A stretch of DNA of 64,000 nt. Source: Bacillus pumilus. Lineage in GTDB: Bacteria > Bacillota > Bacilli > Bacillales > Bacillaceae. Position 1 is the stretch's first letter, and every line of letters starts with the position of its first letter. The notes under the pieces were generated by a model. It was not told where the DNA came from, did not search any database, and was given only the letters and a program-made list of their open reading frames with translations. The position numbers and the translations under genes are program-made. Of the stretch, positions 4,540 to 31,808 are shown in pieces. The stretch covers positions 1,426,001 through 1,490,000 of the forward strand of contig NZ_CP046128.1 of NCBI RefSeq assembly GCF_038738535.1. Direction: 5' to 3'.

Positions 4540-5478
4540 ATGACATTCCATGATGAAAGAAGGCTGCTCATTAAGGTTGCGCATATGTATTATGAAGAAG
4601 GCGCCACCCAATCTAACATTGCAGAAGCTGTTGGGGTTAGCCGTTCGCTCATATCGAAATATTTGGCAAAAGCACGTGAAGCAGGAATCGTGGAAATCAT
4701 TATTCATGATGAAGTCAATCAACAGTATGGATCGTTAGAAAGAAAAATAGAACGCAAATATGGGCTGCGAGAAGTCGTCTGTGTGGAAACGCTTAGCAAA
4801 GACACAACCAAAAGCCGAATCGGTGCCGCGGCAGCAAGCTTTTTATTAAAAGTGATGAAAGATGGACAAGTCATCGGGTTTTCCTCAGGGACAACGCTGC
4901 ATGAAATGGCGAAAGCGCTTACCTCTGTTCAGCACTATCCATCCGTGACATTTGTTCCGCTTGTCGGAGGTGTGGGAAATGAAGATGTCGATATCCACGC
5001 TAACTATATTATTGCGAGATGCACAGAGGCACTCAAATCTAAATGTGAGTTTTTACATGTACCCGTCATGCTTGATACGAAAGAAGCGAAAGATGTACTG
5101 ATCCGGCAGCCGTCGATCAAAAAAGTGATTGAACTAGGAGAATCATCAAATATCGCGGTTGTCGGAATTGGCGGTGTTCCGCAGCATTCAACGATGGTGA
5201 AATCTTATATGACAAGCGGCGAGGAGGACATCCTTCAAGCGAAGGATGTAGCAGGTGACATTTGCTATAACTTTATTGATCATCAAGGGGAAGTATATCC
5301 CCACCCATGGAACGACCGGGTGATGGGCATAAGCCCGCAAAAGCTGAAAGAAATTCCGCTTGTCATAGGTGTCGCTGGTGGCGAAGAGAAAATTGAAGCG
5401 ATCCGGGCGGCATTAGCAGGTGGATTAATTCATGTATTAATTACCGATGAACGAACAGGAGATGCCTTATTAAAGTAA
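4540..5478 (+). CDS. SorC/DeoR-type sugar-binding transcriptional regulator
   Basis: This is a 312-aa regulator. An N-terminal helix-turn-helix (residues ~20-45, ATQSNIAEAVGVSRSLISKYLAKAREAG) is followed by a SorC-type sugar-phosphate sensing domain. That domain shows IGFSSGTTLHEMAKAL, the FVPLVGG loop, VGIGGV near the middle and a C-terminal AALAGGLIHVLITDE. SorC-family proteins respond to a phosphorylated sugar or polyol and commonly control the PTS operon beside them. The start ATG at 4540 is preceded by AAGAAGGG. It is expected to bind the TAACA-N2-TGTTA sites on both sides of its gene. The specific effector cannot be read from the sequence. Confidence 0.9.
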   Translation: MTFHDERRLLIKVAHMYYEEGATQSNIAEAVGVSRSLISKYLAKAREAGIVEIIIHDEVNQQYGSLERKIERKYGLREVVCVETLSKDTTKSRIGAAAASFLLKVMKDGQVIGFSSGTTLHEMAKALTSVQHYPSVTFVPLVGGVGNEDVDIHANYIIARCTEALKSKCEFLHVPVMLDTKEAKDVLIRQPSIKKVIELGESSNIAVVGIGGVPQHSTMVKSYMTSGEEDILQAKDVAGDICYNFIDHQGEVYPHPWNDRVMGISPQKLKEIPLVIGVAGGEEKIEAIRAALAGGLIHVLITDERTGDALLK

Positions 5479-5500
5479 CTACCTAATATCATTAGGTAGT
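5478..5500 (+). terminator. Proximal copy of terminator hairpin A (no T-tract)
   Basis: A perfect 10-bp stem ACTACCTAAT / ATTAGGTAGT with an ATC loop overlaps the regulator stop codon. No T-tract follows, so it is unlikely to terminate by itself. A 26-bp segment containing it (5475-5500) is repeated without change at 5675-5700, exactly 200 bp on. The inverted-end repeat element begins at the next base. Confidence 0.85.
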
Positions 5501-5620
5501 CAGCGTGTAGATAAACCCTCGCATTCGGTGTCAGTCCTGCGTGCCGGTGCTCACGAATATCAAATTCGCTCCGCTCCGGTACTCGTCCTTCCTAGACTGC
5601 AAAGGTTTTCTATCACGCTG
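5501..5620 (+). mobile_element. Small inverted-end repeat element, copy 1 (MITE-like)
   Basis: This 120-bp non-coding element has ends CAGCGTG...CACGCTG. The terminal inverted repeat extends about 17 bp, with two one-base bulges (5501-5517 against 5604-5620). A second copy lies at 31651-31765. By hand alignment the two differ at about nine positions plus a 5-bp duplication (CGCTC repeat near 5567-5576), and their last ~44 bp are identical. The interior shows the direct pair CCGGTGCTC / CCGGTACTC. It has no ORF. It lies between two copies of the regulator gene's terminator hairpin. Whether it is a mobile element or an RNA module is inference. Confidence 0.75.
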
Positions 5621-5627
5621 AAAAGAA

Positions 5628-5666
5628 GACAAAGGGCTAAAATGAAGATCATTTTAGCCCTTTGTC
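5628..5666. repeat. Perfect 18-bp inverted repeat between repeat element and terminator
   Basis: Arms GACAAAGGGCTAAAATGA (5628-5645) and their exact complement (5649-5666) leave a 3-nt loop. There is no T-tract on the + strand side, so it is a terminator-like stem without the tail. It is present only at the first of the two repeat-element sites. Confidence 0.85.
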
Positions 5667-5677
5667 AAGAATCTGTA

Positions 5678-5707
5678 ACTACCTAATATCATTAGGTAGT
5701 TTTTTTT
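5678..5707 (+). terminator. Distal, functional copy of terminator hairpin A
   Basis: The same ACTACCTAAT / ATTAGGTAGT stem as at 5478-5500, here followed by eight T residues. This is the copy able to terminate transcription of the regulator gene. Confidence 0.88.
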
Positions 5708-30985: not shown

Positions 30986-31624
30986 ATGAAAACAAAAATC
31001 GCTAAACACCTATTACAAATCAAAGCGGTCTCATTAAAACCAGACGAACCGTTTACATGGGCAAGCGGTATCAAATCACCGATCTATTGTGACAACCGTC
31101 TTACCTTGTCCTACCCAGAAGTAAGACACGACATTGCTGAAGGTCTTAAAGAGTTGATTCTCACCCATTTTGAGGGAGCGGAGGTTGTTGCTGGTACTGC
31201 AACAGCAGGCATCCCGCATGCGGCATTAGCGGCAGACCGTCTGAACGTGCCGATGTGTTATGTGAGAAGTAAGCCAAAAGCACATGGAAAAGGGAATCAA
31301 ATTGAAGGAGCCGTATCAAAAGGTCAAAAGGTGGTCGTCGTAGAAGACTTGATTTCAACAGGAGGCAGTGTGCTTGAAGTGGTCGCTGCTCTTCAAGAAG
31401 CGGGCTGTGACGTACTAGGAGTTGCCGCGATCTTCACATACGGACTGCCAAAAGCTGCGGCAGCATTTCAAGAGAAAAACATTCCATATGTCACCCTAAC
31501 AGACTATGACACACTGACAGACGTGGCACTTGAGCTGAAAGCGATCGAGCCTTCTGCTATGAATAAACTAAAACGCTGGAGACAAGATCCTTCCTCTGAA
31601 TCTTGGATGAAAGAAACCGTCTAA
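30986..31624 (+). CDS. pyrE: Orotate phosphoribosyltransferase
   Basis: This 212-aa type I PRTase forms OMP from orotate and PRPP. The PRPP motif is [21 protein letters not shown], and the substrate loop segment is [20 protein letters not shown]. It is the last gene of the pyr operon, and ATG 30986 follows a modest GAGTGA site. The operon's terminator stem follows the stop at once, duplicated on both sides of a small repeat element. The element therefore lies in the pyr mRNA 3' end. Confidence 0.97.
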
Positions 31625-31625
31625 A

Positions 31626-31650
31626 AAGCTGCGCGTACCCGCACAGCTTT
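31626..31650 (+). terminator. Proximal copy of pyr operon terminator hairpin (no full T-tract)
   Basis: The stem AAGCTGCGCG / CGCACAGCTT (one C-A mismatch) with a TACC loop and a single extra T is cut off by the repeat element at 31651. The same 25 bp recur at 31777-31801. Confidence 0.85.
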
Positions 31651-31765
31651 CGGCGTGTAGACAAACCCTCGCATTCTTTGTCAGAACTGCGTGCCGGTGC
31701 TCACGAATGTTCAATTCGCTCCGGTACTCGTCCTTCCTAGACTGCAAAGGTTTTCTATCACGCTG
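31651..31765 (+). mobile_element. Small inverted-end repeat element, copy 2 (MITE-like)
   Basis: This 115-bp element is homologous to 5501-5620 and in the same orientation relative to the gene upstream. Its left end is CGGCGTG (one change from copy 1) and its right end CACGCTG. The interior is the same apart from scattered substitutions and lacks the 5-bp duplication. It starts at the base after the proximal terminator copy, and 11 bp separate it from the distal copy. Confidence 0.75.
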
Positions 31766-31776
31766 AATACAATATG

Positions 31777-31808
31777 AAGCTGCGCGTACCCGCACAGCTT
31801 TTTTATTT
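31777..31808 (+). terminator. Distal, functional pyr operon terminator
   Basis: The same stem as at 31626-31650, followed by TTTTTTATTT. This copy has the T-tract required for Rho-independent termination. Confidence 0.88.

Follow-up and report, generated by a model that had tools for sequence, protein, structure and literature searches.

The repeat that separates two copies of the pyrE terminator in a stretch of Bacillus pumilus DNA of 64,000 nucleotides (the window, i.e. the whole stretch analyzed here) is, with a probability that we put at roughly 0.88, a MITE-type non-autonomous relative of IS1182 that inserted into stem-loops and duplicated the whole hairpin. The duplication looks like a target-site duplication by an IS1182-type transposase. 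Most DNA transposons produce a target duplication of fixed length. The duplicate described here takes its length from the hairpin present, an indication that the transposase recognizes DNA structure, in the form of a cruciform junction, and not sequence.

The pyrE site of the window is arranged as follows.

30986..31624, + strand: pyrE, orotate phosphoribosyltransferase (TIGR00336, 171 bits vs a cut-off of 106.8), upstream of the target terminator
31626..31650, + strand: left target duplicate, the first pyrE terminator stem-loop, without T-tract
31651..31776, + strand: element copy at pyrE, a 126-bp deletion form
31777..31801, + strand: right target duplicate, the second pyrE terminator stem-loop, identical to the first
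31802..31808, + strand: T-tract TTTATTT of the original pyrE terminator, after the second copy only

The duplicate is 25 bp long (AAGCTGCGCGTACCCGCACAGCTTT) and its two copies are 100% identical, in agreement with the preliminary description, according to which the 25-bp stem at 31626-31650 recurs at 31777-31801 and the T-tract is present only at the second copy. The same description had the element extend from 31651 to 31765 and estimated its length at 115-120 bp; the start was right, the end had to be moved to 31776, and the full form of the element proved to be about 175 bp long. Hairpin, element, and hairpin follow each other with zero spare bases, the right end of the element abutting the second hairpin. 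The left end of this copy reads CGGCGTGTAGACAAACCC, with CAG changed to CGG, the right end reads ACAATATG where the majority of copies have ACAATCTG, and the internal tail hairpin carried by most copies is missing. The second stem-loop has a predicted fold of -11.8 kcal/mol; a simple terminator scan did not flag it on the + strand, which was attributed to its stem containing a C.A mismatch. Three PyrR binding sites lie upstream of pyrE, and cysH, with a SAM riboswitch ahead of it, is located 3' of pyrE.

The second site in the window, downstream of a regulator gene, contains a full-length copy.

5476..5500, + strand: first terminator stem-loop, downstream of the regulator gene 4540-5478 and including the TAA stop of that gene
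5501..5675, + strand: full-length 175-bp element, CAGCGTGTAGATAAACCC ... TTTGTCAAGAATCTG, right end AATCTG
5628..5666, + strand: tail hairpin within the element, resembling a terminator on the - strand, with base changes that compensate each other in different copies (helix 6)
5676..5700, + strand: second terminator stem-loop
5701..5707, + strand: T-tract, after the second copy only

The product of the regulator gene is DeoR/LsrR-like, with 248 bits for the DeoR model, short of the cut-off of 420. At this site, the second stem-loop was picked up by the simple terminator scan, at 5677-5701 on the + strand. No open reading frame of at least 80 amino acids overlapped 5501-5675, and 175 bp can accommodate at most 58 codons; the element is thus, like a MITE, short and non-coding. 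The argument that two cases with the same layout make chance unlikely was upheld, since the second case was confirmed and the genome-wide repeat described below was far above that of mismatched pairs.

In the relatives, the two sites were found both with and without the element. At the 5476 site, 15 of 16 relatives have a single terminator, and in the sixteenth (G020) the contig stops just after the hairpin and one C. At the pyrE site, a single terminator, seen at the corresponding position in L140 and L147, was present in 7 of 16 relatives (G022, G023, G020, G034, G041, G019, and G013); the element was present in four (G018, G021, G042, and G030), tail-like remnants in another four (G025, G043, G004, and G024), and G001 was left unclassed. 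The full-length form of the element occupies the pyrE site in L141. Because of this empty-site pattern, the single hairpin is taken as the plain state, and the doubled hairpin goes with the element; a target-site duplication together with empty sites is a further MITE character. At two pyrE sites, L145 (G042) and L148 (G030), we observed that the tail hairpin of the element, joined to the T-tract, replaces the second terminator copy, and here the mobile element seems to supply the terminator.

To describe the flanks across genomes, 109 distinct full-length copies were taken from 121 hits, of which nine were dropped as partial and three as lying near a locus end or as duplicated. The 45 bases before the element were compared with the 130 bases after it, and a repeat was called at a score of at least 14. 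A repeat between a copy's own flanks was found in 96 of the 109 copies, compared with 2.0% of the mismatched pairs; these 96 are not all independent, as copies in different genomes may descend from one insertion, and they include a spurious case (L016, a match to the tail hairpin of the element itself), a marginal repeat (L053), and a weak hairpin (L244). The window's genome contributed 31 of 36 copies, L016 among them (mismatched control 36/1,260), and the other genomes 65 of 73 (mismatched control 90/5,256). A T-tract after the pair or an A-tract before it accompanied 91 of the 96 repeat-bearing sites; nine of the 96 had the A-tract only, as expected of a terminator of the other strand, and five had neither. 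The results support the view, put forward in the preliminary description, that the duplication follows the element and not the target sequence: we asked whether most copies lie away from terminators or lack the repeated stem, and found the opposite. Thirteen of the 109 copies were without a detectable repeat. In 11 of these, one flank or both can still fold at -10 kcal/mol or better, and the remaining two (L017 and L245) have no such fold on either side.

The geometry of the duplicate was determined in 46 copies chosen for clean ends and a repeat of at least 12. The duplicate was 18-31 nt long (median 25), and in all 46 copies it contained a hairpin of at least 6 bp, which was centered within 1 nt in 43. 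When folded alone, 45 of the 46 duplicates formed at least six pairs, as compared with 238 of 920 random segments of the same length. The sequence of the duplicated hairpin varies from site to site. According to crude ORF calls, the orientation of the element was mildly biased in tandem gene contexts (31 vs 16), and 55 of the 109 copies lie between convergent genes. Sites with a T-tract only outnumbered those with an A-tract only by 28 to 9, or by 21 to 9 in a stricter tally.

The element is abundant in the genus. The window's genome gave 42 matches, corresponding to about 40 places after two split pairs had been merged; as 40 of 46 candidate stretches were scored, the true copy number may be somewhat higher. 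All 40 places were inspected together with their flanking sequence. A match was present in 38 of 44 genomes of the genus, and five relatives contained 75-82 matching pieces each. When 80 genomes of the family were scanned with a covariance model of the element, 44 gave matches, namely the 38 of the genus and six of a second genus. Two elements 198 bp apart were observed in G018:C1:3376774-3377145. The search for a phage origin yielded zero phage matches at E 1e-5, and a plasmid search with the element matched four records, one of them from Bacillus. The plasmid records NZ_CP078511.1, NZ_CP078512.1, and CP063894.1, which are filed under Stutzerimonas and Klebsiella, carry the Bacillus element, probably as mixed-sample carry-over.

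Matches to the IS1182 transposase were present in 37 of the 44 genomes of the genus, with scores above the cut-off in 13. The transposases of the insertion sequences gave 478.7 and 477.0 bits with the IS1182 model NF033551 (cut-off 270) and carry DDE_Tnp_1_6 and DUF772, which places them in the IS1182 family. Two types were distinguished, A (about 1,549 bp) and B (about 1,505 bp), with transposases that are 46% identical. Both types begin with CAG and end with CTG, as does the element. The left and right ends of the element consensus each match the left end of type B in 14 of 16 bases, a level reached by 2 of 3,127,130 16-mers from 80 pyrE loci. The element thus has terminal inverted repeats in common with an autonomous element, as a MITE does. 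Beyond the ends, the interior of the element showed no similarity to either IS, and an origin by internal deletion of a resident IS was rejected on account of the dissimilar interiors.

The insertion sequences themselves treat their targets in the same way. Of the 55 listed copies that were intact and full-length, 30 were examined, all of types A and B. In 27 of these 30, a repeat with a score of at least 15 abutted both ends, and 24 of the 30 exceeded the maximum (17) of 870 mismatched pairs. The three copies without a repeat of their own were L207, which has none, and two copies at L194. At L194 (G021:C1:1480000-1485000), two IS copies, one of type A and one of type B, lie directly against each other, and the type-A copy has an outer end that is hybrid between the two types. 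A single duplicated stem-loop (AGAGCAGCC...GGCTGCTCT) encloses the two copies together, and the type-A copy taken alone does not have a target duplication. For one IS1182 insertion in the window's genome, each of the 12 relatives compared has a single hairpin at the corresponding position. The nested arrangement at L172 (G018), which reads terminator, element, terminator, IS1182, terminator, with the hairpin tripled, shows that the element and IS1182 use the same hairpin target. Among the copies listed, the window's genome has three intact type-A copies and zero intact type-B copies; thus, the likely partner is absent there now.

Of 20 IS entries listed on named plasmids, 10 were also examined, and the stem-loop duplication was present at seven of these 10 plasmid IS copies. 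These belonged to B. pumilus, B. subtilis, Sutcliffiella, Cytobacillus, Peribacillus (one of three copies), Brevibacillus, and Alkalihalophilus; the copies without it among the 10 were those of a record filed as Arthrobacter and the two other Peribacillus copies. The second genus contains a 158-bp sister element that duplicated hairpins in 21 of 23 copies (control 5/506), seven of the 30 loci having been left out as too short. Its ends match, by eye, those of the Peribacillus and Cytobacillus IS. In G063, a genome of the second genus (loci L335-L366), 16 IS1182 copies belonging to other types were examined (17 matches in all), and none showed a repeat above controls. Stem-loop duplication as a rule for the whole IS1182 family was therefore rejected, and since none of the 16 copies duplicates the stem-loop, target handling differs within the family.

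On these grounds, we propose that an IS1182-type DDE transposase would recognize the ends of the element (CAGNNTGTAGACAAA.../...CTG) and mobilize it in trans. Insertion would take place in DNA capable of forming a stem-loop, in most cases the intrinsic terminator that follows a gene. Each strand would be attacked at a different foot of the hairpin, the one opposite to that used on the other strand, and gap repair would then copy the whole stem-loop onto both sides of the insertion. We infer that a cruciform is extruded and that strand transfer takes place at its two 5' feet. These feet would adjoin at the four-way junction, so that the reach of the transposase could stay constant in space even when the duplicate varies between 18 and 31 bp; the meeting of the two feet at the junction would explain a constant geometry with a varying duplicate length. 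The mild orientation bias is something that a perfectly symmetric cruciform does not predict. As regards the host, the sequence shows the upstream hairpin cut off from its U-tract and the downstream hairpin with the U-tract retained. As only the downstream hairpin has the U-tract, transcription should therefore cross the element and stop after it. The host would keep its terminator and gain a structured 3' UTR.

The possibility exists that the target is not a DNA hairpin but termination itself, i.e. a paused RNA polymerase, an R-loop, or an RNA hairpin, with the element entering co-transcriptionally. The tracts that accompany 91 of the 96 repeat-bearing sites would fit such a route, as would the orientation bias with upstream transcription (31 vs 16, and 28 vs 9). 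However, the duplicate is centered on the hairpin dyad in 43 of 46 copies, nine of the 96 sites have an A-tract only and five have neither tract, and the excerpts available of work on IS1272, a member of the same family, describe use of a coding-region hairpin as well (PMC4923244). A strict orientation rule, which would point to an RNA route, was rejected, since the bias is only mild. We therefore consider entry through termination unlikely, while giving it some weight.

It is very improbable that the repeat brings its own hairpins, or that recombination or slippage between hairpins, instead of target duplication, produced the pair. Rearrangements between tail hairpin and terminator do exist, as seen in L145 and L148, but the duplicated hairpin is specific to the site and equals the single terminator of the relatives where this was checked, full-length IS copies show the same duplication, and empty sites were found at the three insertions checked (two of the element and one of an IS). 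A retro-mechanism, in which an element resembling a group IIC intron enters downstream of terminators, has a similarly slight chance of being right. Group IIC introns do target terminators; they are characterized by a group II intron RNA and are not known to make a target duplication. Here, in contrast, the target is duplicated and the ends are those of a DDE transposon, and no group II intron model was among the Rfam matches of the window or of the element up to E = 1. The identity of the element as a group IIC intron was thus rejected, since there was no Rfam group II match and the target is duplicated. The reading that we prefer remains that of an IS1182-related element inserted into hairpin DNA.

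The element also has a covarying fold of its own. Covariation was examined in 35 diverse copies with 47 proposed pairs, the structure having been derived from the same alignment. The results showed that 98.2% of the 1,637 cells in the proposed pairs are paired, that 13 pairs have changes on both sides, and that 84 cells have double changes (internal helix included), the covariation counts being inflated by related copies. None of 500 shuffles reached the values for pairing, two-sided changes, or double changes, and slid controls were 32-44% paired. Further pair types were no more numerous than in the shuffles, 411 of 500 being as high. Compensations in a single copy were seen at the pairs 142-177, 143-176, and 150-169. 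The covarying fold may reflect selection on an RNA, selection on the DNA ends, or correction of the palindrome by template switching. Rfam gave no match at the gathering threshold at the element; the best weak match was the PyrR site model, with 29.4 bits (E 0.025) where 54 are required. Identity with a known RNA family was accordingly rejected, as no Rfam match at the element was above threshold.

It is conceivable, and in our opinion rather doubtful, that the element, rather than being only a parasite, acts as a mobile RNA module with a structure of its own and provides many host transcripts with their 3' UTR. Each insertion would then place a 175-nt fold, maintained by compensatory changes, ahead of the terminator. 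If this is true, host genes would gain a common 3' UTR element, which might, e.g., stabilize mRNAs, bind proteins, or insulate convergent genes from each other. The covarying fold raises the question whether insertions shape 3' UTRs across the genus. The doubling of the terminator leaves the host with a stop signal, which amounts to a self-insulating strategy, and this may explain why about 40 copies are tolerated in the genome studied here and 75-82 pieces in each of five relatives. Moreover, with many natural insertions for which the empty sites are known, structure-guided target choice is directly testable.

Several short repeats of other bacteria can be compared with the element. The B. 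subtilis genome paper reportedly describes an intergenic repeat of 190 bp, similar in size to the element. The repeats bcr1-bcr3, which like the element are short interspersed repeats in UTRs, are MITE-like, specific to the B. cereus group, and characterized by a TTTAT motif in the portions of the reports at hand (PMC3446304, PMC6542083), which would distinguish them from the element. The pneumococcal repeats BOX, RUP, and SPRITE are small and intergenic, SPRITE being terminator-like, and terminator duplication is unmentioned for them in the accessible portion of the source (PMC10969869). Searches of the open-access literature, which leaves most subscription papers outside, yielded no description in which a MITE or an IS duplicates terminators as a rule. 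What is already known is the IS1182 family and the palindrome preference of some of its members, as far as the available parts of two papers go (PMC4923244, PMC5678879); the regular duplication of a whole terminator and a high-copy element exploiting it did not appear in the open literature.

According to the same partial texts (PMC4923244, PMC5678879), IS1272 and TnSha1, members of the IS1182 family from staphylococci, show little preference for sequence and choose inverted repeats, terminator hairpins among them, as insertion sites. In the same texts, insertion of IS1272 removes the hairpin, by deletion or replacement, without duplicating the target, and hairpin duplication was drawn in the 2017 IS1272 paper as a hypothetical branch of the model. 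The element resembles IS1272 and TnSha1 in being inserted at terminator hairpins. Unlike with IS1272, the hairpin is here kept and doubled, and replacement of the IS1272 type was not what the sites showed. The closest correspondence is with IS1182 of the Bacillaceae type, the ends of which are CAG...CTG. Examples are found on the plasmids pBP-T2 of B. pumilus and pBpOF4-01 of Alkalihalophilus, the latter copy being ISBspe1-like. The element differs from these in being 175 bp long and non-coding and in having a dissimilar interior, whereas its ends, the family of its putative DDE transposase, its hairpin target, and the exact duplication of the whole stem-loop are the same.
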